In this document: positions 10,093-27,765 of the stretch, piece after piece
How the letters are laid out: the number at the start of each line of letters is the position of its first letter
Position numbering within the stretch: the stretch's first letter is position 1
From: a virus
Length of the DNA: 30,648 nucleotides
Direction: 5' to 3' (one strand)
Virus record (IMG/VR): IMGVR_UViG_3300021961_000015
Coordinates: 1-30,648 of that record
Position numbers and translations under genes: made by a program
The notes under the pieces: generated by a model
The model's input: only the letters and a program-made list of their open reading frames with translations
Databases searched by the model: none
Told to the model about the DNA's origin: nothing

Positions 10093-10956
10093 TTATACAA
10101 ATTGCCATTGTCTGATTTCTCCCCAATAACCTTGCCATTGTGCTGGCGAAGTTCCCCACACTTGCGGATTTGTCCATAGGGTACAATATTCACAAGTTCC
10201 GAAATCAGGGTGTGGTATATACATTATAGGCAAATTCACAAAATCATAATCATCTTCACCTTCAAATGTATCTACTATGGTATAACAATTCAAATCATAA
10301 TAGGTAGTAAGGTCAACATTGTATTTTGGAAAGTATCTACTTGCAAATACTTGTCCTATGCTACCACTCTCTGTAAGAACTGCTTTATACCTTTCACCAT
10401 CCGCACAATCCTCAATAATATATCCACTTCCCGAAGGGTTAATTAAAAAAAAAAGGCAACGATTTTTATCATTGTGAGTTGTCAGTTCAAAGGTTGCTGA
10501 CCACCCTGCCAATCCGTTATTAAACCTATCGGAAAAAGGTGTACATGTTATATCACCATTGATTTCAAAACCTGCCACTCCTCTTTGGGTATATGCGGTC
10601 AGGTCATTTAAAACTGCAAGTGTATTTGCATGTATATCTACCATATCATCAACCCCGTAGAATGGAATTGTTTGTTCGTTTCTACTGCCTGATGATTCGT
10701 TATTAAGGACTTTTTGTTTATCTGCTACAATCAACTGAATTGTAAAATTAGTAGTAGATGTTCCAAAGGATGTATCGGTTATTAAGATATTTCCTAATGG
10801 ATATTCAGGATAAGATTTATCATCTATTGTATCAATGTCACCATACGTTACCGATTGGATAGTAGGGTGATTTCTCATTATTGTTTTAAAATAATTAAGA
10901 ACATTGTAATAGAGTGAGTAGTTTACACCTGTGTTATGTACGATTTGTTGAGCCAT
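10093..10956 (-). CDS. Tail terminator-like protein with cysteine-rich C-terminal extension
   Basis: 287 residues. Residues 1 to about 171 look like the tail completion/terminator family of Bacteroidota phages: NYFKTIMRNHPTIQSVTYGD, YPLGNILITD, FTIQLIVADKQ, then NGLAGWSATFELTTHNDKNRC near the usual end. Residues about 172-287 are an extra domain (YIIEDC, CYTIVDTFEGEDDYDF, FGTCEYC) that also appears in the adhesin. Codons 168-171 are CTT TTT TTT TTA, a ten-T run at the exact border. A -1 slip there gives Asn-stop (172-residue product), and loss or gain of one T also stops at once. Long and short forms are therefore possible. It starts 5 bp after the connector gene. Confidence 0.65.
   Translation of the reverse strand: MAQQIVHNTGVNYSLYYNVLNYFKTIMRNHPTIQSVTYGDIDTIDDKSYPEYPLGNILITDTSFGTSTTNFTIQLIVADKQKVLNNESSGSRNEQTIPFYGVDDMVDIHANTLAVLNDLTAYTQRGVAGFEINGDITCTPFSDRFNNGLAGWSATFELTTHNDKNRCLFFLINPSGSGYIIEDCADGERYKAVLTESGSIGQVFASRYFPKYNVDLTTYYDLNCYTIVDTFEGEDDYDFVNLPIMYIPHPDFGTCEYCTLWTNPQVWGTSPAQWQGYWGEIRQWQFV
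10444..10455 (-). promoter_or_regulatory. Slippery sequence CTTTTTTTTTTA in tail terminator gene
   Basis: Minus-strand codons 168-171 read CTT TTT TTT TTA, followed by ATT AAC. A -1 slip reads AAT TAA (Asn-stop). One extra T gives the same stop, and one missing T gives TAA directly. All slips thus yield a product of about 170-172 residues without the cysteine-rich extension. Confidence 0.5.
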
Positions 10957-10961
10957 AATTA

Positions 10962-11480
10962 TTATAATTGTATTCCGTGGAAGTAATTATTGCTTTGGTC
11001 AGGATATATCTGTGTTTGATTTCCAACAGACTCCAAGTATTGTGGAATGTTATTAGAATATGCGATTAAATAGTTTTGTAATCTTAATGCGTAATAGTCA
11101 GCATTTGCTTGAGCCATACTTTTAAGATAATCTATTTCAGTTTTACTTGGTGCAACACCCTGTTCACTTTGTTGTTTCACAGCACCATTAGATTTAAATT
11201 GAATAGAACTAAATGGAATATACTCCACGCATGCATACCATAATAGTGTATACTTTATGTGGTCATCCATTAAGTCCTGATAATAAGAACTCAATGAACC
11301 AAAAGTTCCTGCTACAATCTGTGCTTGCAGATATTCAAATAAGACAGTACCTAAAAGATTTTTAAGATACTTGTCCTGCGCAGTTCTACAAAATGGTAGA
11401 AGTGCATCTGCATCAATTGCACCCTGTAGTGGTGAATTTTTAATTATATCGTTTCTGCTAATAAAAAGTGCGTATGACAT
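10962..11480 (-). CDS. Head-tail connector (adaptor) protein
   Basis: 172 residues. It begins MSYALFISRNDIIKNSPLQG and continues with DADALLPFCRTAQDKYLKNLLG, LMDDHIKYTLLWYACVEYIPF and a long C-terminal helix with YYALRLQNYLIAYSNN. This helix-rich pattern is typical of the head completion/adaptor proteins that bind under the portal in Bacteroidota phages. I believe it is in the DUF6712 type, from memory only. It begins 1 bp after the portal stop and lies 5 bp before the tail terminator gene, giving the expected portal-connector-terminator order. Confidence 0.65.
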   Translation of the reverse strand: MSYALFISRNDIIKNSPLQGAIDADALLPFCRTAQDKYLKNLLGTVLFEYLQAQIVAGTFGSLSSYYQDLMDDHIKYTLLWYACVEYIPFSSIQFKSNGAVKQQSEQGVAPSKTEIDYLKSMAQANADYYALRLQNYLIAYSNNIPQYLESVGNQTQIYPDQSNNYFHGIQL

Positions 11481-11481
11481 A

Positions 11482-12774
11482 TTATTTATAAATTTCGTAT
11501 TCTTTATTAAAATGTGCAGGCATTACAAACTCTCTCATCTCTAAATCTTGTTTAGGGATTACTGAATCTGGATTTGTTTCTGCATCTGTTTGACCTTCTT
11601 CAGGTGTTTGCATTGAATCATTAACTTCATCTTCAACTTCTGCAACAGTTTTACCAGTTTCTTCCGCTGTTGTAGAAAGAATTACTAACGGAGTTAATTG
11701 TTCAAAGTATAATTCTCTACTATCGTATCCACCAATTTGGAATGCATAATCTAATGCGTTCACAATAAGATTTTGGAATGGCATGATAGTCATTGTTTGT
11801 AGAATAGAGAATGCTGTTTTCATTTCCTCACTTTGTGAAGAGAAACCATTATTTGCAGTACGAATACCGAATAATAATGGTGATGTTACTCTATGCGATA
11901 CAAGTATTCTATCTTGTGCATATTCTGCAACATACTGAAACTTCTCATGCATATTATCGATAGAGATTGTATCAATTGTAGGTTTCGTTGCTACATCATC
12001 ATTGAAAGATAACATAAAACGTCCTGCGTTATTTGTACCTGTGAACTTTGCTTGTAATAAATCTTCTATTGTTTGTCTTTCTTCAGGAGCAGGTACACCA
12101 TTGTTAAAGTTTACCATTACAAGAGGTAAGAAACCATTTGTAATATTGTGTAAGTGTAAGTTAGATAATTCTGCTTCACTTACTGCAAATTGTAATGAAG
12201 ATACATAATCAGGTAATGCGTAATAATATAAACCTGGGCAATAATGTTTGATGTAAAGTATTTCCATCTTCTCATTAGATGTGCCGAAAGCAGGTATCTT
12301 CTTTTTATCTCTTACTTTCTTTTGGTCATTCCAATCTACACAATAGTAATAGTTTTCAATACGAGGATTAGAATAAAGTTTTTCTGCACGAAGTGTTTGT
12401 ACTGGCACCTGATACATCTTAACGATTTTTGTATGGTCATCGTTCCAATATACTTGTAGTGCAGCATTACCAAATAGTTTCAAATCAAATGCAATTCTTT
12501 TTACTTCTGTTTGTGGTAATACCTTTTCTAATACTTGCTGAAATGCTTCATCCTTACTAAAAAGTCCTTTACCAAATATTAAGTCGGAGATACCTTCTAT
12601 ACATGCAGCATTAGTTGTTGAGTTATTGTATGCAATTGTTACAGCATCAAAGAAATCATCGTGTCCATAAACACCGAATGGAATCCAACCATAACGTGTT
12701 TTAGTATCTTCCGTAATGATTGGAAGAGTATTATTATTTACATTGATAACTGAAAATTTTTGATTTAGTTTCAT
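11482..12774 (-). CDS. Portal protein
   Basis: 430 residues. The portal forms the dodecameric ring at the packaging vertex. Visible features are an N-terminal YGWIPFGVYGHDDF and ACIEGISDLIFGKGL, and a clip-like central region with VPVQTLRAEK and IKHYCPGLYYYALPDYVSSLQ. After this come EERQTIEDLLQAKFTG, and RILVSHRVTSPLLFGIRTANNGFSSQSEEM near residues 285-315, which resembles a conserved portal segment. The end is acidic and flexible. Size is at the low end for portals. It lies downstream of capsid and tail tube and 1 bp before the connector gene. It is therefore far from the terminase genes, which is unusual for tailed phages. Confidence 0.82.
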   Translation of the reverse strand: MKLNQKFSVINVNNNTLPIITEDTKTRYGWIPFGVYGHDDFFDAVTIAYNNSTTNAACIEGISDLIFGKGLFSKDEAFQQVLEKVLPQTEVKRIAFDLKLFGNAALQVYWNDDHTKIVKMYQVPVQTLRAEKLYSNPRIENYYYCVDWNDQKKVRDKKKIPAFGTSNEKMEILYIKHYCPGLYYYALPDYVSSLQFAVSEAELSNLHLHNITNGFLPLVMVNFNNGVPAPEERQTIEDLLQAKFTGTNNAGRFMLSFNDDVATKPTIDTISIDNMHEKFQYVAEYAQDRILVSHRVTSPLLFGIRTANNGFSSQSEEMKTAFSILQTMTIMPFQNLIVNALDYAFQIGGYDSRELYFEQLTPLVILSTTAEETGKTVAEVEDEVNDSMQTPEEGQTDAETNPDSVIPKQDLEMREFVMPAHFNKEYEIYK

Positions 12775-12775
12775 A

Positions 12776-13135
12776 TTACTTCATTATTATGTAGCTATTT
12801 TCGCTCAGATGAGAGATATATTGCCTGTTCTGATTTTCGTATACTGATTTATCTGTTGATTGAGATGCAAATACTTGCACACTACCATTCCAAATTGGAG
12901 TAAGTGAGCCAGAGTTTAATAGTTCTGCTCTATACTCTTGTCCAACAATTGCACCACTTATTGCAAGAGAAAATGAAACATAACTTTCGTATGGTTCATA
13001 ACTCATAGATGTAATCGTTCCTCTAAATGTTTCCAACGTTGTCATATCTGTTAAGGACATAGTATATTGATTACTTGCCGTAGGTTGCGTTCTGAACGTA
13101 TAATCGTTGGATTGAGATATAAAATAAGATAGCAT
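12776..13135 (-). CDS. Small structural protein before portal, unknown
   Basis: 119 residues. No firm family. It starts MLSYFISQSNDYTFRTQPTA and contains TFRGTITSM, VGQEYRAELLNSGSL and IWNGSVQVFASQSTD, ending HLSENSYIIMK. The pattern of alternating strands with YRAELL...IWNGSVQVF looks like a small beta-sandwich found in other marine and freshwater phage structural blocks. Its stop is 1 bp from the portal start, and it is the first gene after the terminator that closes the capsid-tail tube unit. A decoration or head-completion role is possible but not shown. Confidence 0.55.
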   Translation of the reverse strand: MLSYFISQSNDYTFRTQPTASNQYTMSLTDMTTLETFRGTITSMSYEPYESYVSFSLAISGAIVGQEYRAELLNSGSLTPIWNGSVQVFASQSTDKSVYENQNRQYISHLSENSYIIMK

Positions 13136-13195
13136 TATCTGGGTTTTATATTATAATAACACAGATTTATCTCTCCATACTTAAATAGCATAAAA

Positions 13196-13223
13196 AAACC
13201 CCACTCAATTAAGAATGGGGTTT
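13196..13223 (-). terminator. Intrinsic terminator after the capsid-tail tube genes
   Basis: On the minus strand an 8-bp stem AAACCCCA / TGGGGTTT closes a 12-nt loop and runs into a seven-T tract (plus-strand A7 at 13192-13198). It lies 24 bp downstream of the tail tube stop and 60 bp upstream of the next gene in the same direction. It therefore likely reduces transcription into the portal and tail genes relative to capsid and tail tube. Confidence 0.8.
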
Positions 13224-13246
13224 AATATATTTTAGCCTATACTGAA

Positions 13247-13783
13247 TTAGCTATATACGATAGTTGGTTGAGATGACAAACCTGCGAATGGAGAAGTAGT
13301 TGTACTTCCGCTTAAGAAAGCTGCTGGTAATTGTTCCTGTCCCTGAAAAGTTACAGAATATCCATACAAATCTCCTAATGCTCCACCTGTTTGAATTGTT
13401 CCCGCAGTTACATCTGCACCCTCTCTTTCACCAACCAATAATGCATCACCGTTCATTGTCCATACAACGATTTGAGGTCTACCATAAGCCATAAGCTTTA
13501 ATTGAGTAGTCATTTCGTTTGTAAGCTTTTTAAGATTTAATACTAATTCTTGTGAGAAGAATGTAGTACCATTATCTCTTGAAGAGTTCACGGTTTCAGT
13601 ATATGTGCTATTTCCCTTCAATTCATAGTAGTAAACTGTACTACCTGAAGGTAAAGCGGTAACTTGACCACTTCCGTTCTTTGTAAAAGAGCCAGTTGTG
13701 TAGTTGATAAAGTAAACACCGGCTAAACCACCGATACTTTCTTTACAAACTTCCTGACGTCCTTGTGTTAAATTACATGCCAT
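13247..13783 (-). CDS. Major tail tube protein
   Basis: 178 residues. The start (CNLTQGRQEVCKESIGG, VYFINY) and the core are as in the tail tube-like family of Bacteroidota phages. The core runs NGTTFFSQELVLNLKKL, QLKLMAYGRPQIVVW, GREGADVTAGTIQTGG and YGYSVTFQGQEQLPAAFL. The protein would polymerise into the tube that surrounds the tape measure. The usual ending 'VTF.G.E..PA' is present. It follows the capsid gene by 30 bp and is followed by a strong terminator, so capsid and tube, the two proteins needed in highest copy number, form the last part of one transcription unit. Confidence 0.75.
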   Translation of the reverse strand: MACNLTQGRQEVCKESIGGLAGVYFINYTTGSFTKNGSGQVTALPSGSTVYYYELKGNSTYTETVNSSRDNGTTFFSQELVLNLKKLTNEMTTQLKLMAYGRPQIVVWTMNGDALLVGEREGADVTAGTIQTGGALGDLYGYSVTFQGQEQLPAAFLSGSTTTSPFAGLSSQPTIVYS

Positions 13784-13813
13784 ATACTTTGTTTTTGTTA
13801 GTTAGTTAATTGA

Positions 13814-14779
13814 TTAGTATGCACCGTAGTACACGATATCTTGTCCAATACCGAACTCAACACCTGCTGTGTATCTCATTATGATACGATAGTTTTGAGA
13901 ACCATCGATGTTCGCCATATCAAGTACTTTAACCTCGTTGTAATCAGACATTAAACCTGTTCCGAAGAATAAGTTAGATTTTTGTGCTGCAACGATTTTG
14001 TCAGAACTCATACCTGGACACCATACGATTTCGATACCATTGAAGTTGAATGGTTTTTCACCAACGTTCATTTGGTTGTTCCATCCGTTTGCTCCAATTG
14101 CACCACCTGCTAATGCTTGCTGATATGCTTTTGCTACGTTTGTAGAAACATATAACAATACATCTGGCTTACCATAAACGGTATCAGGGATTGTGTTTAC
14201 AACAGAATTTAATTTGTCTAATACGTTTGCAGAAGTTACAGAGCCAGAGATTACGATTGAACCACTCTTAGCCGCTAATACTGCTGTTGAACCACCTGCT
14301 GCGATAGATGCAGAGAAATCAGCTTGGAATCCAAGGAACTGACCATTAACGTTAGTACCTTGCCAAATTGATTGTTCAGTTGCTTCTGCTACTTTACCAC
14401 CAACGTAAGATACCAAGAAATCGTTGAAGTTCTTTGGAATTTCATCGAATGCAGAGAAACCTAATTGTAAAGCTTCCCATGAATCTACGAACTCTTGCTT
14501 ACATAATTGTAAGTTAACTTGTAATTCTTTTGGTTGTAAAATTCTTTCTGAAATCGCTACTGAACCACTAGTAGTGAAATCACAAGATGCGTCTTGTACA
14601 ATACCAGAAACGTCCAACTTCTGTAATACAGATTTGAATTTAACGTTTGGCATAATTGTTACAAGCTTCTTGTCCAAAGTGTTTGCACTTAATAAAGCAG
14701 CTGCTATATAGCCTGATGCTGCCTCACCAGCGTATGTTGTGGTGATTGTAGGAAGTGCGAAATTTTGTCTTGTTTTCAT
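13814..14779 (-). CDS. Major capsid protein, HK97 fold
   Basis: 321 residues. The sequence shows a helical start (GYIAAALLSANTLDKKLVTIMPNV), LQPKELQVNLQLCKQEFVDSWEA and a helix with FNDFLVSYVGGKVAEATEQSIWQG. Next come PDVLLYVSTNVAKAYQQAL in the A-domain region, FNFNGIEIVWCPGM, and an ending with RIIMRYTAGVEFGIGQDIVYYGAY. This is how short HK97-type capsid proteins of Bacteroidota phages look. It is preceded by an acidic scaffold-like gene and followed by the tail tube gene. The leader AAAAAGGAAAAAATG has one of the few Shine-Dalgarno-like stretches in the window, in keeping with strong expression. Confidence 0.85.
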   Translation of the reverse strand: MKTRQNFALPTITTTYAGEAASGYIAAALLSANTLDKKLVTIMPNVKFKSVLQKLDVSGIVQDASCDFTTSGSVAISERILQPKELQVNLQLCKQEFVDSWEALQLGFSAFDEIPKNFNDFLVSYVGGKVAEATEQSIWQGTNVNGQFLGFQADFSASIAAGGSTAVLAAKSGSIVISGSVTSANVLDKLNSVVNTIPDTVYGKPDVLLYVSTNVAKAYQQALAGGAIGANGWNNQMNVGEKPFNFNGIEIVWCPGMSSDKIVAAQKSNLFFGTGLMSDYNEVKVLDMANIDGSQNYRIIMRYTAGVEFGIGQDIVYYGAY

Positions 14780-14813
14780 TTTTTCCTTTTTAATAATTTT
14801 TTATGAAATATGT

Positions 14814-15545
14814 TTACTTATAAAGTTTAGATAAGAAATTAGATTGCGGAGTTGCAACTTTCTTACCGAAATTTTTTCTATTTGTTTCTGCGGAGAACTT
14901 CATTGCTTCATCAACAGGAGCACCATCTAATTTTGGTAATTCCATTTCTTCTTCAACTTCTTCTGCTACTTTCTCATCAGGAGCTGGCATCATTGCTTCC
15001 ATCTTTGCCATCTTCTTTTCCATCTCTTCGATTCTGTAAGCCATGTCTTCCATTTTCTTACCTAATTCGATTTCGATTTCTGGCTTCTCATCTTCAGGCT
15101 TCAATTCTGCATCAGCATCTTCTGGAAGTGTTTCTACTTCTTCTGTTTCTTCTGCACCTTTGAATGTTCCTTTGATTTCAGAGCCTGCTGGGTCTGCAAC
15201 TTCATCATCTTTTGTGTAAGTTCCTGCTTCAGGAATATCTTTTACTTTTTCAGTTGATGCATCTGCATCTGCCATTTCTACATTCATTCTCTCAACGATA
15301 ACACCATCTTCTGTTCTTACTTTGATAAGATTCTCATTACCTGATTCATCTTTCAATGCTAACTCGTGTGTTCCGTTTGGAGCTGGAGATTTTGTACCAT
15401 CTTCTGATACAACATCTAATTTTTCACCTACGTCAAATGTTGGTGATTCTACGATAGTTCCGTCTGCTAATTTCGCATATGTTAATTCCACTTCTTCTGC
15501 TGAAAGGAACTCTACTATCTTGTTTAATACTTTCTTTGCGTTCAT
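14814..15545 (-). CDS. Scaffolding-like acidic protein upstream of capsid gene
   Basis: 243 residues and very acidic (many Glu and Asp). Residues 20-95 form repeated short strands (LADGTIVESPTFDVGEKLDV, DGTKSPAPNGTHEL, RTEDGVIVERMNV) as in a family often found just before capsid genes in Bacteroidota phages. Residues about 160-190 are a coiled coil (KKMEDMAYRIEEMEKKMAKM). The end is basic (ETNRKNFGKKV to FLSKLYK), as expected for the capsid-binding tail of a scaffolding protein. It lies 34 bp before the capsid gene. Role as internal scaffold is inferred from composition and position. Confidence 0.65.
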   Translation of the reverse strand: MNAKKVLNKIVEFLSAEEVELTYAKLADGTIVESPTFDVGEKLDVVSEDGTKSPAPNGTHELALKDESGNENLIKVRTEDGVIVERMNVEMADADASTEKVKDIPEAGTYTKDDEVADPAGSEIKGTFKGAEETEEVETLPEDADAELKPEDEKPEIEIELGKKMEDMAYRIEEMEKKMAKMEAMMPAPDEKVAEEVEEEMELPKLDGAPVDEAMKFSAETNRKNFGKKVATPQSNFLSKLYK

Positions 15546-15607
15546 AGTTTGTGTTTTTAAATGCAGTTAATATAATAACATGCGTTTTGATGTTTGTAAT
15601 TATTTTT

Positions 15608-18600
15608 TTATCTTATTTGCGTTACTGTCAGAATTACTGATGGGATTGCAGGTATGTTTCCACTTGCAGGTTCATATAATATAGTCGCATTTCCGTTTGT
15701 TGTTTGGTATGCTAACTGATAGTAATCATTTGCTACTGCTTCATCTAAAATGTTTACAGTCATAATCTGTGCTGTGTTATTTGCTAATACTACTTTACTT
15801 GCAGAGTCAGAAATATTATTTCCGTTTTTCTTAAACCAAATATGGACAGTATCTGCTCCTGCTGATGTTTCTATTTGTGCAGAGAACTGAACGTTGTAAG
15901 TTCCGGCTTGTGATAGAGTTACCTGTGAATTGTTTACAACAGATACTCCTGCTACACTACCTGAATTGTTGAATGTGATACTTCCACTTACTCCTGCACT
16001 TCCACTTTGAGTTGTAGTTGACCAAAACTCTGCTGCGTCAAATGATGCAGATGTAATAGCTGCAAGTGATGCTTTTCTTAATTCACCTGTTGTTGTGTCA
16101 TAAGTTACAACATCAGCAGTTACTCCATTTTGTAGGTTACTTATAAATGTGCTACCTGAAAGTATTGTACTACCACTTACGTTAAGAGTTCCTTCAAAGA
16201 ATGAATTAGAACCGCTATCAATTAAGAAACCGGTCTTTCTTACTATACCTGTACTTCCTGATGTACCCGTACCTACTGCGAATACTGTTTGAGCTGATAA
16301 TGCTCTATTACCATCTTCCGCATTCCATCTTCCGAAGAAAGCAGAACCTCCATTTTGTCCACCTGCATTTGCAGCGTTTGATGCATCATATAAAGATGTT
16401 CCGTATATATTTAATCCCTGTCCAATAATTGCTGATGCTAATAAGTGTCTATTTCCATCACCAATTACAGATGCGGATATACGGCTACCACCTATCACAT
16501 TTCCATAAAGTCCTCTACCTCTATCGTTTGTCGTACCTGTTCCTGCTGCACTGCCAGAGAAGTAAATATTATTTGCTATAAATCCTAATAGTGTATTTCC
16601 ATTTATGTTGAATGTTCTACCTACCGTTCCATTTGTCATAGAGTCATAATCATTAGTTATGGTAAATCCACCTAATGAATTCGCGGTCATAGCTACCGAT
16701 GCGGATGCTCTATTTGTTACAGTAACCGCTCCATTAATACTGTTTTGTTGAATAGCGTTAGTAGAACCAACGGTAGGTCCATTTACAACTTGGTCATTTA
16801 TCGTAAGCGAACCATTCATGGTATTATTTGACACTGTATATCCTCTACTACCAGATTGGACATTCATTGTTAGAGTTCCTCCTATAACATTCTGTTGAAT
16901 TGCATGGGTAGAAGATGAAACCGGTCCAAAATATTGTATTGTACCTTGTGTTAATACATTTGATGTTATAGAAACTGCGTTGCTTCCACTTACTCCCGCT
17001 AATACGTTTGCAACTGATGCAGATGGTGCATTAAGACCTATTGTTGGGATTAATCCAATGTTATTACTAAAAGTAACAGCACCTGTATTACCTGTTGTAT
17101 TAAAGTTCATTGTACCATTTTCTAAAATATTATTTGAATATATGTGTGCACCTGGGTTAGATGCTTGGTTTATATTCCATGTAATATTTGATGGTATAAT
17201 ATTATTATTCATTGTAGGTCTATTACCACTTACACTTGCAGCTGATGCAGTTATTTGTGGTACAGAGCCTGAATTCATATAAATGTTTCCAAAACCTCCA
17301 ACAAATCTTGTAAAGTTTGTTGTTGGTGCTGTTGGATTAACAAATATATTATTACTACCGCTTACTTGCGTAGTACTCGTTAAGTTATTATTTTTGAATA
17401 CTAAATTAGCTTGGTTTTGTGCACTTGCTGATAAGTGTAATAGATTTGCTGCGCCTGAATTAAATGTTAATGCACTTAATACTAAACTACCTGAAATACT
17501 TTCCACAGATGGATTTGCGAATGTTTGTCCGCCACCACCTCCTCCGCCGGAGCCAGTATCTACTGTGATATTAAATGTTGTGTTATCACCTTTTGTAAAT
17601 GTAATTGTGTTAAGTGATACAGATGCAGTTATTAGTGATGATGCAGTTACAGAAGAACTAACAAATCCTAATGCGGTTATTTGTGCACTACCTGATATTG
17701 TTCCTGCTGGTATACTACCACCACCAAATGATGATGTAGCAACTTGTGCATTTTTACCTGCTGAATTACCTACCCATGCATATCCTTCTTGTAGTGATGC
17801 TGTAAAGCCACTTTCTAATCTAACATTGTTTGTTGCTATAATAGGTGCTTGGAATGTATTGATATATGTTCCACCCTGATTATCTATTAACCATAATTGT
17901 TGATTAGTCGAACCTGTCACAACAAAGTCATAAGTTTGTCCGTTATCAGAAACACCCACTCTGAATATTTCATTGCCACCATCTCTTGTAAACATCAAAT
18001 AATTGTTGTTTGTAAGAGCGCTAGACCCACTAATTATTACTCTACCGGCTACATTTTGATTACCTATAAAACTATTTGAGCCTGTTGTTGCGAATGAGCC
18101 TGTATTTATTGTACCGCTACCACTAACGTCAGGAATGTTTACTGCGAATGTAGTTGTATCTCCTTTTGTAAAAGTTAAGTTACGAGTTCCGTTATCGAAT
18201 GAAGCAGTAATTAAGAAACTACCACTTTCTGTTTCAGTTACATAAGATGCAGTTGCTGCATTTAACGCATTGATACTAACTTGTTGAGATGCAGATGATG
18301 CATTCAATTGGGTTATAGATGTATTAACACTTGCTGAATTACTTTCTAATGATGATACTCTTTGATTCGTAGATGCAGTATATGCATTGAATGAAGATGT
18401 AGTTACAAAGTTTCCTGCACTACCTGAAACATCAGGGATATTTACAGCAAACGTAGAAGCATCTCCTTTTGTAAATGTAAGATTTCTAGTACCATTATCA
18501 AATGATGCTGTAATTAGGAAACTGCCACTTTCTGTTTCTGTAACCCAACTACCACTTTGAGAACCTAAAATATTCCACTTATCATTATTAGATGCAGTAT

Positions 18601-19246
18601 AAGAATTAATTGATTGCGTATATGCATTGAAAGATGCAGTTGAAACAAATGCTGTTGTTAAACTTGCTGTGAAATTATTTAGAGATTGTGTTGTTTGATG
18701 TATTGAATCTAAATCAGCAGTTGTTGATGCGGTGTATTGATTAAATGAAGCCGTATTTAATTTAGTTCCATCTTGCTCTATAAAGATAGAAGCAATAGGT
18801 CCATTAACATTTGGTACAATGCTTGCCGATACTAATCCAGAAAAATGTAATCTTGTAGAAGTACCTTGTACAATACCATTATCTGCAATTTGGTTTACAG
18901 ATGCAGTCCATGCTTCTATATTAGCTGTTTCATTTTCCAATGCAGTCAATCTACCATTAGCAGATTGAGTAAATGTATTAACTCCACTATTAATCGTTAA
19001 TTGTGAAGCAGTGAATTGATTTAATGCTGCAAATGATGGTTGCTGTGAAGATGTAAATGTATTTAATCTGCTTATTGAATTATTCCAACTTGCACTATCT
19101 ATATTATATCCTATCTCATCAACAAGAGAGTCAATCATGTTCACATTGAATCCTCTCAAATCCGCAGCTGATATTTCTCCATTATTGTTATTTGGAAAAC
19201 TTGTATTATTTTCTACCTTTAAGGCCTGTTTACTTAATTCAGACAT
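15608..19246 (-). CDS. Large tail fibre / tailspike-like protein
   Basis: 1212 residues, the largest gene. N-terminal 200 residues are a Ser/Thr/Asn-rich shaft with coiled segments (FTASQ, RLTALENET). Two nearly identical modules at about residues 233-275 and 334-376 share VTETESGSFLITASFDNG and LTFTKGD, and a divergent third lies near 530-562, before a glycine run. Residues about 590-950 have repeating NNI/NNT turns (NNNIIPSN, SNNILENG, QQNVIGG), the pattern of a right-handed beta-helix. The final ~140 residues (VSGSITFNNSG, AGTYNVQFSAQ, IWFKKNG, YYQLAYQT) resemble a C1q/TNF-like jelly-roll tip. It is encoded between terminase and scaffold genes, an unusual place for a fibre. Confidence 0.75.
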   Translation of the reverse strand: MSELSKQALKVENNTSFPNNNNGEISAADLRGFNVNMIDSLVDEIGYNIDSASWNNSISRLNTFTSSQQPSFAALNQFTASQLTINSGVNTFTQSANGRLTALENETANIEAWTASVNQIADNGIVQGTSTRLHFSGLVSASIVPNVNGPIASIFIEQDGTKLNTASFNQYTASTTADLDSIHQTTQSLNNFTASLTTAFVSTASFNAYTQSINSYTASNNDKWNILGSQSGSWVTETESGSFLITASFDNGTRNLTFTKGDASTFAVNIPDVSGSAGNFVTTSSFNAYTASTNQRVSSLESNSASVNTSITQLNASSASQQVSINALNAATASYVTETESGSFLITASFDNGTRNLTFTKGDTTTFAVNIPDVSGSGTINTGSFATTGSNSFIGNQNVAGRVIISGSSALTNNNYLMFTRDGGNEIFRVGVSDNGQTYDFVVTGSTNQQLWLIDNQGGTYINTFQAPIIATNNVRLESGFTASLQEGYAWVGNSAGKNAQVATSSFGGGSIPAGTISGSAQITALGFVSSSVTASSLITASVSLNTITFTKGDNTTFNITVDTGSGGGGGGGQTFANPSVESISGSLVLSALTFNSGAANLLHLSASAQNQANLVFKNNNLTSTTQVSGSNNIFVNPTAPTTNFTRFVGGFGNIYMNSGSVPQITASAASVSGNRPTMNNNIIPSNITWNINQASNPGAHIYSNNILENGTMNFNTTGNTGAVTFSNNIGLIPTIGLNAPSASVANVLAGVSGSNAVSITSNVLTQGTIQYFGPVSSSTHAIQQNVIGGTLTMNVQSGSRGYTVSNNTMNGSLTINDQVVNGPTVGSTNAIQQNSINGAVTVTNRASASVAMTANSLGGFTITNDYDSMTNGTVGRTFNINGNTLLGFIANNIYFSGSAAGTGTTNDRGRGLYGNVIGGSRISASVIGDGNRHLLASAIIGQGLNIYGTSLYDASNAANAGGQNGGSAFFGRWNAEDGNRALSAQTVFAVGTGTSGSTGIVRKTGFLIDSGSNSFFEGTLNVSGSTILSGSTFISNLQNGVTADVVTYDTTTGELRKASLAAITSASFDAAEFWSTTTQSGSAGVSGSITFNNSGSVAGVSVVNNSQVTLSQAGTYNVQFSAQIETSAGADTVHIWFKKNGNNISDSASKVVLANNTAQIMTVNILDEAVANDYYQLAYQTTNGNATILYEPASGNIPAIPSVILTVTQIR

Positions 19247-19257
19247 ATCTAATTTAT

Positions 19258-19533
19258 TTATGGTTGTACTATATCAAAATCATCAGAGTAACTATTATCA
19301 AATGCTCCACCACCTGTTCTTGTAGGTGATTCTATTACACCTATGCCCTGATTCATAAGGTATCCCTGACAGCACTTAACATCATAGGTATTTGAATCCA
19401 AACAAAGACACGCTCTTCTGCTATTCTTTGGTGAACTCAATCCTAATGTTGGTCCGATGAATATGCCGGATTGATTTTCTCTGTTTACAGAATAACGAAG
19501 GTTTCCGTTTCTGCTATTGCTCCATTTAGGCAT
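19258..19533 (-). CDS. Small cysteine-rich structural protein, unknown
   Basis: 91 residues from ATG at 19531-19533 (MPKWSNSRNG). An in-frame extension to 19557 without an obvious signal is less likely. The sequence has GIFIGPTLGLSSPKNSRRACLCLD, YDVKCCQGYLMNQGIGVI and an acidic C-terminus. I have a sense of having seen the 'CLC.D...Y...CC.G....QGIG' pattern in other environmental phage structural blocks, next to fibre genes. The four cysteines (CLC, CC) could bind metal or form disulfides. It sits 11 bp upstream of the 1212-residue fibre and may be its attachment or assembly partner (inference). Confidence 0.55.
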   Translation of the reverse strand: MPKWSNSRNGNLRYSVNRENQSGIFIGPTLGLSSPKNSRRACLCLDSNTYDVKCCQGYLMNQGIGVIESPTRTGGGAFDNSYSDDFDIVQP

Positions 19534-19575
19534 GAGATACTTTTTTAATAATAACAAAGATACTTCTATCTATCG

Positions 19576-20345
19576 TTATCCCTTTCCTACTTTTGCCAGA
19601 GACTCTTTATGTAGTGTTTGTTCAACTAAACCTTTATCTGCTTTGTAGCACAGATATAATAGTACTTTTTCTAATGGTTCTTGAGAAATAGAGTCGAAGC
19701 GGGTGACATCACCATTTGCGAGCTCAACAATTGTAATATAGCTTCCCCACTTCTTTCCAAAATTTGCTTGTATTGGGGATGAACTTCCTCCTTCATCGAA
19801 TATTTCAGAGTAGCGCTCAGTAAGTCCGTTAATAAATTGAATAAAAAAAAAAGTGCTCCGAAGTGTATATGCATAGGTACATCTAACCATTTCTCGTCAC
19901 CCTTGCTACCTTCGTATTTGGTTATAGAGTAATTACCCATTGATTTGGTTTCAACAGGTCTGTATAGTATATTCATTATCTTTGCCCAATTACTGTCTAT
20001 TGTTATTTGTCCGAACTTTGTAATGTCCGCATATGCACCATAGGACATATTAGATAGATTAGGTTCAAATCCATATTCAACACCATCTATCTTAATAAAT
20101 CTTTGCAATTCCAAATCTGTTTTTCCAATGAACTGCATCAACTCATACTTTAATAGATTATAATCATCTACTGATATACCTGTAAGATATTCAGGTGATA
20201 GGCCGCATAAGTGTAAGAGTAGAACAGCAGTTGTTGCTTCTTCATCCTCTTCGTAATTCTTTAAATCATTCTGTAACTCTAACCATTTGCGAAGTGTAAT
20301 ATCTTCGTAGCCCGTTGGTATCTTTAACTCAATTTGTTTTTGCAT
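19576..20345 (-). CDS. Predicted -1 frameshift fusion (gpGT-like)
   Basis: If ribosomes slip -1 at T_TTT_TTA, residues 1-168 of the zero-frame product join an 88-residue alternative C-terminus encoded down to a stop at 19576, giving 256 residues. The new part has FINGLTERYSEIFDEGG, FGKKWGSYITIVELANGDVT and LYLCYKADKGLVEQ, a balanced, folded-protein-like composition. It fills the 94 bp left between the zero-frame stop and the next gene. The two frames overlap for about 180 bp, as in gpG/gpGT tail chaperones. No clear downstream pseudoknot was seen. A one-base indel of the ten-T run in the assembly is the alternative. Confidence 0.5.
19671..20345 (-). CDS. Tail assembly chaperone-like protein, zero frame
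   Basis: 224 residues. Motifs are LKIPTGYEDITLRKWLELQNDL, DGVEYGFEPNLSNMSYGAYAD, IMNILYRPVETKSMG and DVPMHIHFGALFFLFNLLTDLL. I associate this series with a common tail-region family of Bacteroidota phages, probably the gpG-type assembly chaperone. After the LFFL codons (CTT TTT TTT TTA, 19853-19842) the zero frame continues 56 residues, with YKQILERSGEAILQ. The -1 frame stays open to 19576 with a different protein-like sequence. The heptamer T_TTT_TTA is in the correct phase for -1 slippage. The start overlaps the previous small gene by 17 bp. Confidence 0.62.
   Translation of the reverse strand: MQKQIELKIPTGYEDITLRKWLELQNDLKNYEEDEEATTAVLLLHLCGLSPEYLTGISVDDYNLLKYELMQFIGKTDLELQRFIKIDGVEYGFEPNLSNMSYGAYADITKFGQITIDSNWAKIMNILYRPVETKSMGNYSITKYEGSKGDEKWLDVPMHIHFGALFFLFNLLTDLLSATLKYSMKEEVHPQYKQILERSGEAILQLLSSQMVMSPASTLFLKNH
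19842..19853 (-). promoter_or_regulatory. Slippery sequence CTTTTTTTTTTA in chaperone gene
   Basis: On the minus strand codons 165-168 read CTT TTT TTT TTA. The last seven bases form T_TTT_TTA in the X_XXY_YYZ phase, the same heptamer used by HIV-1 gag-pol. A -1 slip, or insertion of one T by RNA polymerase slippage, opens the 88-codon second frame. The same 12 bases occur in the tail terminator gene at 10444-10455. Confidence 0.6.
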
Positions 20346-22237: not shown

Positions 22238-22634
22238 AATATCCTCTCGTGTCTGGTATGATTTTTGATTCTAAACTTTTTCTTCCTCTTTTGCCACTTC
22301 CTTTCTCTAATATTATTGGCGTAAATCTTAAATCCGTACACCATAACCATATTCCACTTTCTATCATAAATTCGATTTCTTTACGATATATCTCTCGCCT
22401 TTGTTCGTGGGTTTCTGCTTTATTTAATTCTCTTTGTATTCTTCTATGCCTTAACCTTTTTTCGTTTTCGTTTAGTGGATATGGTTTTTTATAATCTTCT
22501 TCACTTAACTTTTGTGATTTTTTATAATGTCTTTTTCGGCATGGTACACATAAGCAATATATGTTTCTGCTATTCCAATCGTATGTATCTCCGCAATTCA
22601 CACATTCTTTAATTTCCGTTGGTAGTTTTCTCAT
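22230..22634 (-). CDS. Zinc-ribbon-like protein, unknown function
   Basis: 134 residues. Residues 11-33 hold CVNC, then CLCVPC, a C-x2-C ... C-x-C-x2-C array likely to bind zinc. Downstream is a basic helical stretch with NENEKRLRHRRIQRELNKAE and a region with FMIESGIWLWCTDLRFTPII. The composition suggests nucleic-acid binding, perhaps a transcription accessory factor working with the adjacent sigma-like protein. The two genes overlap by 26 bp, which fits coordinated expression. No family name can be given. The high positive charge and the C-terminal RGRKSLESKIIPD are the other visible features. Confidence 0.65.
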   Translation of the reverse strand: MRKLPTEIKECVNCGDTYDWNSRNIYCLCVPCRKRHYKKSQKLSEEDYKKPYPLNENEKRLRHRRIQRELNKAETHEQRREIYRKEIEFMIESGIWLWCTDLRFTPIILEKGSGKRGRKSLESKIIPDTRGYYE

Positions 22635-23178
22635 TTGGGTTGGGTATAACTTCGTTTAAGTATCTTCTTATTTTTTTAATTGCAAGGAATGTTGTACTTT
22701 TACTTATTCCTATTTTCTTTGCTAAACTTTCCATTGTATCATCACTTTCAAAATAGAGTGAGAAGATACGTGCTTGTGGCCACATTCGTGTCTGTTGTAA
22801 TGCTTTTAGTTCTCCTACTATTTGCTGATGTGTTTCCATTATGAGTATATCTCTTTCTTCGTTGTATGGTACATATTCTTCTTCTGTATGTATTTCTTCT
22901 TTCAAGGTTGTCCGATTCATTTTCTTAACCTTATTCATCCAACGAGAGTGTAGAAACTTATTACAATAGAATAGATTGAATGTATTATTTCCGTAGAATA
23001 TTTTAGGATTACATTTTTCAAGCAGATAGATATAAAGGTCAGAAACTAATTCTTCTGCATCTTCTTTATGACGAGTAAGTTTCTTTGCTTCTCTTACTAA
23101 CCATATGTGAGATTCTCTGTATAATCCATCTACTCTTCTCTCACAATTACAATAATCAATAGAGCCTGTATCTATCAT
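22609..23178 (-). CDS. ECF-like RNA polymerase sigma factor
   Basis: 189 residues. Residues about 25-56 (IWLVREAKKLTRHKEDAEEL, LYIYLLEK) match sigma region 2, including the 'AEELV' version of the usual ADDLVQ core-binding helix. Residues about 146-175 (DTMESLAKKIGISKSTTFLA, IKKIRRYLNE) are a region 4 helix-turn-helix. The linker is acidic (KEEIHTEEEYVPYNEE). It likely directs host RNA polymerase to a subset of phage promoters; placement before the terminase and structural genes suggests a late switch. Similar small sigma-like proteins are common beside terminase genes of Bacteroidota phages, though their activity is rarely tested. The start is 1 bp after the previous stop. Confidence 0.68.
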   Translation of the reverse strand: MIDTGSIDYCNCERRVDGLYRESHIWLVREAKKLTRHKEDAEELVSDLYIYLLEKCNPKIFYGNNTFNLFYCNKFLHSRWMNKVKKMNRTTLKEEIHTEEEYVPYNEERDILIMETHQQIVGELKALQQTRMWPQARIFSLYFESDDTMESLAKKIGISKSTTFLAIKKIRRYLNEVIPNPNEKTTNGN

Positions 23179-23889: not shown

Positions 23890-24025
23890 TTTTAATAAAT
23901 TTTCTGATGATGTTTGCTGATAATGCTGATATTTTGAAACCATGCTTATCACAATATTTTTTTAATTCTGTATGTAACTCAATTGGAATTTGTATTAGTC
24001 CATACTTTTTTTCTTTTTTATCCAT
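23873..24025 (-). CDS. 50-residue ribbon-helix-helix-like protein
   Basis: ATG at 24023-24025, TAA at 23873-23875. A lysine-rich start is followed by the strand YGLIQIPIEL, helix HTELKKYCDKHG and a second helix ISALSANIIRKFIKN. A strand then two helices in 40 residues is the Arc/MetJ/CopG-type layout, which dimerises and binds DNA by the strand. It would be a small repressor or regulator, first of the small-gene cluster after the endonucleases. It overlaps the next start by 17 bp. The fold call is by pattern only. Confidence 0.6.
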   Translation of the reverse strand: MDKKEKKYGLIQIPIELHTELKKYCDKHGFKISALSANIIRKFIKNDKSN

Positions 24026-24028
24026 AAT

Positions 24029-24550
24029 TTATAATTTGTGATTTAATGCTAATCCTAAATCTTTGAATGATTTAATAAATGCTTTTTCTATTTGACGTAA
24101 TCCTTTTCTATCCATATCTTCTGATTCAAAAAGGATACCTACCTGATGGTTATCTATACCCCATTTTTTAAAACTTTGAAAAAGATTAGGATGCTGTGTT
24201 GTTTTCTTACCATTCATCCAAGCATTAAATTTTACTTTATGTTCTAACAAACGTACACCCATGTGCATGTTAGTCATACCTATATAGTACAACCCATTAG
24301 GTGCTTTTAGGTAATAAACTTTTGAACTCTTATCTGCTTTTCTGAATTTACCAACAATTTCGACATGTCTTTGTGGATTCTGTCTTTGCCAATCTAATTG
24401 ATACTGCGGATTGATTTCTCTAAAATTCTTATTGATTTTCTTAAAGCAAGACTTACATTTACATTGAAGTCCATCTTTACTTGCAGTCTTTTTGTGAAAT
24501 TCTGATGTGGGTTTAGTTTTATTGCATTCGTTGCAATGTTTCGTATTCAT
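24029..24550 (-). CDS. Free-standing GIY-YIG endonuclease with zinc finger
   Basis: 173 residues from ATG at 24548-24550; an in-frame TTG 12 bases upstream is less likely. An N-terminal zinc finger has C6, C9 and C32, C35 (KHCNECNKTKPTSEF, CKCKSC), as seen in many phage homing nucleases. The GIY-YIG domain follows: VYY at 78-80, YIG at 89-91, R100 as the catalytic arginine, and E155 as the metal-ligand glutamate. All expected residues are present, so it should be active. No intron was seen around it. It stands as a self-contained mobile gene, 36 bp downstream of an HNH endonuclease gene. Confidence 0.85.
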   Translation of the reverse strand: MNTKHCNECNKTKPTSEFHKKTASKDGLQCKCKSCFKKINKNFREINPQYQLDWQRQNPQRHVEIVGKFRKADKSSKVYYLKAPNGLYYIGMTNMHMGVRLLEHKVKFNAWMNGKKTTQHPNLFQSFKKWGIDNHQVGILFESEDMDRKGLRQIEKAFIKSFKDLGLALNHKL

Positions 24551-24586
24551 ATATTGTGCCAATTTATATACTAATATATATTATTC

Positions 24587-25282
24587 TTAAATGCCAAACG
24601 CATGATTTCTTAAAGAATTTATCATACCTCTATTAAGATTTAACTTAAATTCTTTATAAATCCAATCTTTAATATGCCTTGGTTTTAAATTTGTATTTTG
24701 TTTTATATGATTAATAATTTCGGTTTTAATGTAAACTGGAACAATATTTTCTGCCTGTTTATATATTTGTATATTATTATGTACTAATACTTTTCTTGCA
24801 ACACCAATAGAAACTTTCCAATATTTAGCTGGATATTTTAATTGTCCAAATTTTTTGTATAATTGTATTCCTTTTTGTAATTTCTTTTGATTATTTTGAA
24901 TGCTATTAAATTTAGGCTTTTTTATTTCTAAATTAGAATACTTATGAAAATTATTTTGTTCTTTCGTAACCCACTCTAAATTTTCTACTGAATTATTACT
25001 TTTATCAAAATCTTTATGATTAACTTCAGGTAACTTTAATGGATTTGGTAAATAACATTCTGCTACTAATCTATGAACGTAGAATGCTTTTGGTTTATCA
25101 TTGGTAGATTTATTTTGTAAAACTATTAAATGATATCCTGTTTTTTTATTAGGATATGATTTTACTAATCTTGGATTGGCTTTTTGAAACGTGCCCCATC
25201 TATTCTTTGTTACTGTATTAAAAATATTACCATCTTTATCGATTAAATATTTTTCAAAACCTTTGTGTATTAAATTTTTCAT
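24587..25282 (-). CDS. Free-standing HNH homing endonuclease
   Basis: 231 residues from ATG at 25280-25282. A reading from TTG at 25309 is less likely. Residues about 12-25 (YLIDKDGNIFNTVTKNR) are a NUMOD4-like motif. The HNH core covers H70-R71 (FYVHRLVAECYLPNP), N88-H89 (PEVNHKDFDKSNN) and NLEWVT at 101-106. The rest is basic and helical with a helix-turn-helix-like IGVARKVLVHNN, for DNA recognition. It is the first gene of the leftward operon, directly behind the control region, and adjacent to a second endonuclease of another family. Confidence 0.85.
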   Translation of the reverse strand: MKNLIHKGFEKYLIDKDGNIFNTVTKNRWGTFQKANPRLVKSYPNKKTGYHLIVLQNKSTNDKPKAFYVHRLVAECYLPNPLKLPEVNHKDFDKSNNSVENLEWVTKEQNNFHKYSNLEIKKPKFNSIQNNQKKLQKGIQLYKKFGQLKYPAKYWKVSIGVARKVLVHNNIQIYKQAENIVPVYIKTEIINHIKQNTNLKPRHIKDWIYKEFKLNLNRGMINSLRNHAFGI

Positions 25283-25325
25283 ACATCTAATATACAAAAA
25301 GTTTTTCAAATTACCAAATAAAAAT

Positions 25326-26964: not shown

Positions 26965-27765
26965 ATGAAGCAAAATCCTATTGTAAAAAAAGTACTAAAT
27001 AAATTCCAAAGTATTCAAAACATCGCTGAAGTATTTGTAACAGGTCAATCAGCACAAAGAGGACTATTAATATCAGGTGATGCAGGTACAGGTAAATCAC
27101 ACTATATTAGACAAGCATTTATAAATACAGGTACAACTAATAAAGTTGATTATGTAAAATCAGTATCATTTACTGCACCTGCTTTATATGCTAAACTTTG
27201 GGAAAATAGACACAAAGGTAATGTAGTTGTATTTGATGATTGTAGTTTAGAGTCATTAACAGGTGAGTCATTTAGAAAATGGGTTAGTTGGATTAAAGGT
27301 GGTTTGGAATTATCAAAAGATAAAAAAATGATTGGTTATGAAGCAGCATCTAAAAATCAGTTATTTGAAGATTTAGGTGTTGAGCCTGAATTTAATTTTG
27401 AAGGTTCTATTATTTGGATAACAAACACTCGATTTGATAAACTAGAGAAGAAATTCGCAGACCATTGGGATGCTGTTAAAGGTAGATTTATTTGCGTAGA
27501 AATCTTTCTTTCAAAGGAAGAAAAGTATATGTACACAAATTATCTTATTGATGAAAAGGATATGTTAGGTAAAAAATGTGAAGCAAAAGAAGGTGGATAT
27601 TCGGATAAAATTATTCTTAAAACTATGGAATATTTATCAGATTCTTATGATGACTTTAAAGAAGTAACACCACGTATTGCAATTAAAGTTGCAGACACAA
27701 TGGAAATGTATCCTGATATGTGGAAAACAATTTTAGATAATCAAAACATTTATGAAGATGAGTAA
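26965..27765 (+). CDS. AAA+ ATPase, helicase-loader-like
   Basis: 266 residues. Walker A is GDAGTGKS at 38-45, Walker B VVVFDDC at 87-93, and sensor 1 WITNTRF with N154; R174 (KGRFICVE) could be the arginine finger. The single compact AAA+ module with a short C-terminal lid fits phage DnaC/gp44-type loaders or related remodelling ATPases. It is the only replication-type enzyme I recognise in this genome, so it probably recruits host replication proteins to the phage origin. Alternative: a MoxR-like or transcriptional AAA+ protein. It overlaps the next gene by up to 14 bp. Confidence 0.75.
   Translation: MKQNPIVKKVLNKFQSIQNIAEVFVTGQSAQRGLLISGDAGTGKSHYIRQAFINTGTTNKVDYVKSVSFTAPALYAKLWENRHKGNVVVFDDCSLESLTGESFRKWVSWIKGGLELSKDKKMIGYEAASKNQLFEDLGVEPEFNFEGSIIWITNTRFDKLEKKFADHWDAVKGRFICVEIFLSKEEKYMYTNYLIDEKDMLGKKCEAKEGGYSDKIILKTMEYLSDSYDDFKEVTPRIAIKVADTMEMYPDMWKTILDNQNIYEDE

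Follow-up and report, generated by a model that had tools for sequence, protein, structure and literature searches.

In-frame T tracts as probable programmed slippage sites in a tail terminator gene and a tail-chaperone-like gene of a phage lineage

Tail chaperones produced by frameshifting have been described before, and so has transcriptional slippage. The tail chaperone genes G/GT of phage lambda and E/E' of P2 produce a short form and a trans-frame form, the latter being reached by a -1 shift and carrying a conserved extension (PMC5009743). In Thermus thermophilus, slippage at an A9 run of dnaX (tau/gamma) gives in-frame mRNAs that encode the long protein and mRNAs of other lengths that lead to a nearby stop and a short protein (PMC1088944). 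Nine is the usual length of bacterial slippage runs, and counterselection against runs appears at this length in many bacteria (PMC1088944), the RNA-DNA hybrid in the polymerase being of 9-10 bp (PMC5009743). In the Shigella type III secretion genes spa13, spa33, mxiA and mxiE, slippage extends some products of one machine and truncates others (PMC5009743). Ribosomal frameshifting adds a C-terminal adhesin-like domain to part of the virion pool of SPP1 gp17.1*, of TpeX of the 936 phages and of the T3 capsid protein (PMC5009743, PMC6669499). In open-licence papers, neither a tail terminator with a slippage site nor a phage tail chaperone expressed through transcriptional slippage was found to be reported.

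The sequence analysed here, called the window, is a virus record from IMG/VR of 30,648 nt. It contains exactly two copies of the 12-mer CTTTTTTTTTTA, both on the minus strand (10444-10455 and 19842-19853); dinucleotide shuffles give an expectation of 0.07 copies per window, and two or more copies were obtained in 1 shuffle of 100. Both tracts are read CTT TTT TTT TTA, the T run beginning at the second position of codon 168 in a tail terminator gene (gene A) and of codon 165 in a tail-chaperone-like gene (gene B) (Table 1). This agrees with an earlier note on this DNA, which had placed a ten-T run in frame at codons 168-171 and 165-168 of two tail-assembly genes and had seen no other run of ten identical bases: the next longest single-base runs of the window are of 8 (twice), then of 7. 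Since independent contigs show the same lengths and phases, sequencing or assembly error is ruled out as the origin of the tracts. The same note had proposed that slippage would extend one protein and end the other at once. A -1 shift indeed opens 91 codons in gene B and the shifted frames of gene A stop soon, and comparison with relatives strongly supports the view that a single slippage motif acts in opposite ways on the C-termini of the two genes.

Table 1. Positions, in the window, of the features of genes A and B discussed in the text.
Feature	Position	Strand	Basis or remark
Gene A (287 aa in 0 frame): tail terminator carrying a C-terminal extension	10093..10956	-	ORF; terminator fold, lambda gpU Z 11.6
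Gene A terminator domain, codons 1-167 (fold match residues 11-165)	10456..10956	-	Structural match
Gene A T10 slippage tract (predicted), codons 168-171	10445..10454	-	Exact T10, same phase, in 85/85 distinct complete relatives
Gene A post-slippage stops: +1 TAA 10445-10443, -1 TAA 10441-10439	10439..10445	-	Predicted short products of 170 and 172 aa
Gene A extension domain, codons 172-287, four invariant Cys	10096..10443	-	Adhesin-like by context
Gene B, tail-assembly-chaperone-like, 224 aa in 0 frame	19671..20345	-	ORF; Phage_TAC_7, below curated cut-off for window protein
Gene B T10 slippage tract (predicted), codons 165-168	19843..19852	-	T9/T10 in 143/143 distinct relatives, any phase
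Extension of gene B in the -1 frame (91 codons); predicted trans-frame product of ~256 aa	19579..19851	-	Conserved in all relatives
0-frame tail of gene B (codons 169-224), which overlaps the -1 extension	19674..19841	-	Open ~51 codons vs null median of 6

Gene A lies just after the portal gene and a DUF6712 gene. A structure model built from 25 relatives, of modest confidence (mean pLDDT 64, pTM 0.47), shows a terminator domain reaching residue 165 and, apart from it, a beta domain; the linker (residues 164-175), modelled with low confidence, corresponds to the tract. Tail terminators fill the top structural matches of residues 11-165, lambda gpU being first, and Foldseek gives E values of about 5e-4 to 1e-2 against terminators. 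As modelled, the residues up to 165 have the tail-terminator fold of lambda gpU.

Reading through the tract in frame adds ~117 aa to the terminator, and up to ~930 aa with fibre-type domains in some relatives. Thus, the same T10 tract leads into much longer proteins in the contigs L206 and L249 (445 aa), L210 (927 aa) and L251 (>320 aa, open-ended), the fusions being located at L210:6389-9157, L206:1965-3287 and L251:1-957. Those of L206 and L210 carry a Gly_rich_2 domain and that of L251 an Lcl_C match below the curated cut-off; some of these long fusions also have Thr-rich linkers. Gly_rich_2 is also found in a nearby gene of the window (8532-6946). Modelled alone, the extension reaches a pLDDT of 79; searches retrieved no known family or convincing solved fold for it (best Z 4.1; Foldseek best E 0.1), and it recurs in two proteins of uncultured phages, the length of one of them being 868 aa. 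Homology of the extension with the Cys-rich end of the Gly-rich protein encoded at 8532-6946 was considered and rejected, the likeness being by eye only (hhalign E 0.5). Because the tract leads into long, fibre-like modular proteins with Gly_rich_2, a modular adhesin-like arm is inferred, and gene A most likely encodes both a plain terminator subunit and one bearing such an external arm.

The tract of gene A is conserved as T10, in one single phase, in all 85 distinct complete homologs with the extension. It might be thought that it merely consists of the codons of a conserved Leu-Phe-Phe-Leu linker, the short form being irrelevant and gene B alone being programmed; L168, F169 and L171 are indeed invariant in the protein alignment. 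However, codon 168 is CTT in 44/44 representatives, although CTT makes up 15% of Leu codons, and no other of the 103 columns scored for codon use is as extreme, whereas several synonymous codons are used at the other conserved Leu and Phe columns. Furthermore, T10 is retained in two contigs where this codon has changed to ATT (Leu to Ile). The Arg166 codon just upstream (10459-10461) is also unusually conserved, being CGT in 39/44 representatives against codon usage, and this suggests that the local codon bias may have another cause; CGT is also found there in some run-less relatives.

The shifted frames of gene A provide a second line of evidence. In the window, the -1 frame is read TTT AAT TAA and the +1 frame TTT TAA. 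Among the 85 homologs, the +1 frame stops immediately in 84, which is weaker evidence as this stop is partly a consequence of the conserved Leu-Ile/Val, and the -1 frame runs on for at most three more codons in all 85, a limit that the +1 frame respects in every homolog too; in a marine clade the -1 stop lies further out, up to about five codons. An immediate -1 stop occurs in 37 of 44 representatives vs 16.6 under a synonymous null, whose maximum is 28. Slippage would thus yield a terminator of 170-172 aa, which is the same length as the natural end of most run-less relatives: L141, L143 and L157/L024, which have no extension, end at 172-173 aa, at the site itself. These stops and the run-less relatives that end at the same place also stand against the linker explanation, which is judged extremely improbable.

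The earlier note had named run-less relatives in which the frame simply continues as a refutation, and no such relative was found: those of gene A stop at the site or, in L401 and L402, carry an unrelated in-frame tail of 36 aa in place of the extension. In L139 (3243-4018), an internal deletion removes the tract of the gene A homolog and the frame ends at 165 aa, which could be due to an assembly error or to a mutant. The match of gp09 of the Nonlabens phage P12024L to gene A is not convincing.

Runs of 9 or 11 T, likewise named beforehand as a refutation, were sought by scans at the gene A site and found in only four true homologs, each on a single contig (T9 in L316, L320 and L327; T11 in L329). 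These variants could suggest that the tracts are contingency loci, where replication slippage at the DNA level would switch the phage population between forms (phase variation). However, each of the four stands alone in a clade whose other members have T10, near-identical ones for three of them, and lengths are otherwise fixed; they are therefore treated as errors or passing mutants, and the idea of frame-swapping lineages was dropped. The extension of gene B also keeps the same relative frame at 143/143 loci, and phase variation appears very unlikely.

The designation of gene B as tail-assembly-chaperone-like is based on a match to Phage_TAC_7 and on its frameshift anatomy. Of the 29 members of the family, 16 match Phage_TAC_7, at E 5.6e-4 for the best; the window protein reaches E 0.02, below the curated cut-off. 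Gene B has no NCBIfam match, and scans found no relatives in bacterial genomes. A chaperone gene is usually, but not obligatorily, located directly upstream of the tape measure gene. Gene B is not: it follows the terminase gene, ~18 kb from a tape-measure-like gene (100-1980). This unusual order, with the chaperone-like region (19258-20345) beside the terminase gene, is common to P12024L (L147, NC_018272.1). In this cultured phage, the homolog of gene B (23946-24640) consists of gp40 and gp41, annotated as two separate hypothetical genes and joined across a T9 run at 24388-24396. A profile match of gp41 to the gene B extension was discounted as circular, since the alignment includes that stretch. 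From the host of P12024L (Persicivirga), the host group of the lineage is probably the Bacteroidota.

Other genes of the window include a possible phage sigma factor at 22609-23178, with a weak match to sigma-70 region 2 (E 0.0034), an HNH endonuclease-like gene at 24587-25309 and, on the opposite strand, a gene encoding an AAA/DUF815-like ATPase at 26965-27765. A sigma-70 note is also attached to gp35 of P12024L.

In a first scan, every gene B locus reaching the site had one of two tracts, T9 (phase 0) or T10 (phase 1) (L010, which ends before it, is outside the tract count). A scan led by the distant Nonlabens phage protein added relatives ~27-34% identical to that protein, all with T9 or T10. 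Among 143 distinct pooled loci, T9 is found in 100 (phases 0/1/2: 63/31/6), T10 in 43 (1/41/1) and fewer than nine T's in none, and the conserved extension lies in the -1 frame in all 143. Run and phase are conserved on alignment in gene A, as the earlier note had asked, and in gene B the run is conserved in any phase.

Each gene B tract contains the in-frame heptamer T TTT TTT. When the T's to the left and right of this heptamer were counted and then shuffled, totals below nine were expected in 12.9 of 46 representatives (<65% identity) and in 3.4 of 16 (<50% identity); none was observed in either set (P about 1.5e-4 for the latter, P values being guides only as relatives are linked by descent). 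The T's on the two sides thus compensate, which indicates selection on homopolymer length and not on one codon pair. The 0 frame was compared with a null in which the -1 codons were resampled synonymously: it stays open for ~51 codons, whereas the null closes after a median of 6, so that the unshifted tail is also under selection. The homolog of P12024L, with a 0-frame tail of 24 codons (P 0.38), is perhaps an exception. Judged from these comparisons, gene B has two real C-termini.

The earlier note had left the choice between ribosomal -1 frameshifting and slippage of RNA polymerase open; the comparative evidence favours the latter. The same two products per gene would result if ribosomes made a programmed -1 shift at U UUU UUU or U UUU UUA, a mechanism that is established for the tail chaperones of lambda and P2 (PMC5009743). 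An in-frame heptamer is present in every tract, and the invariable -1 frame of the gene B extension fits both mechanisms equally, one added U also giving -1. However, seven T's would suffice for the ribosome, yet runs of 7 or 8 occur in 0/143 gene B loci, and the extra T's compensate across phases. Heptamers of any other kind were not found, and codon 168 of gene A is frozen despite being outside any -1 heptamer. Furthermore, in the alignments of relatives, no consensus hairpin was found beside either tract (mean z about 0). Not every ribosomal frameshift site needs a stimulatory RNA structure. Runs of at least nine are also scarce elsewhere in these genomes: about 24 were counted over 1.85 Mb, and 45 would be expected per 0.54 Mb under a first-order model. 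Ribosomal frameshifting as the explanation is rather unlikely, but it could contribute alongside, U UUU UUU being in frame in every tract.

Because at least nine T's are selected in any phase, a gene A codon outside the heptamer is frozen, no consensus hairpin was found and such runs are scarce elsewhere, both T10 tracts are probably sites of programmed slippage, and the slipping enzyme is most likely RNA polymerase. The T tract would fill the RNA-DNA hybrid, and the polymerase, assumed to be the enzyme of a host itself deduced from the cultured relative, would realign on T9-T10 and add or drop U's, producing a mixed mRNA pool for each gene. Unslipped mRNA of gene B would encode the chaperone ending in the 0-frame tail, whereas mRNA with one extra U would encode a fusion of the chaperone with the -1 extension, a pair comparable to G and GT of lambda. 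Conversely, unslipped mRNA of gene A would encode the terminator with its extension, and the gain or loss of U's, other than by threes, would lead to a prompt stop and a plain terminator. Plain and extended subunits could then be combined in the ring capping the tail, which would bear a few adhesin-like arms at the neck. A role in setting ratios of tail assembly proteins, as initially proposed, would thus hold for gene B only, in the manner of G/GT; gene A would instead provide plain vs arm-bearing terminators.

On a wider reading, about which our judgement is evenly divided, polymerase slippage replaced ribosomal frameshifting in the tail chaperone of a widespread lineage of tailed phages, probably infecting Bacteroidota, and was reused for a mixed terminator ring, where slipped mRNA would give plain subunits and unslipped mRNA modular neck adhesins. 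If this is true, transcriptional slippage would be a fixed, lineage-wide switch of tail assembly in DNA phages, for which textbooks cite ribosomal frameshifting, and the second site would set how many terminator subunits carry the adhesin-like arm. P12024L, which is in culture, also carries the chaperone tract, so that this part of the proposal is open to direct test.

Set against the described systems, a tail switch that relies on slippage throughout a lineage and a terminator that exists in forms with and without an adhesin-like arm both look like new variants. Gene B resembles lambda G/GT and P2 E/E' in its short and -1 trans-frame forms, but differs from them by having, where those genes have a heptamer, a homopolymer of at least nine T's whatever its phase, by a long selected 0-frame tail and by its position beside the terminase gene, far from the tape-measure-like gene. 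Gene A shares the logic of Thermus dnaX, but with T10 and not A9, in a putative virion ring protein and not a polymerase subunit, and with slippage that is predicted here. The pair resembles the Shigella genes in that slippage would extend one product and truncate another of the same machine; those are bacterial secretion genes, for which slippage was shown experimentally. Finally, gene A is comparable to SPP1 gp17.1*, TpeX and the T3 capsid protein in placing an adhesin-like domain on part of the virion pool, but these are major tail or capsid proteins to which ribosomal frameshifting adds the domain, whereas in gene A, a terminator, the shift would remove it.
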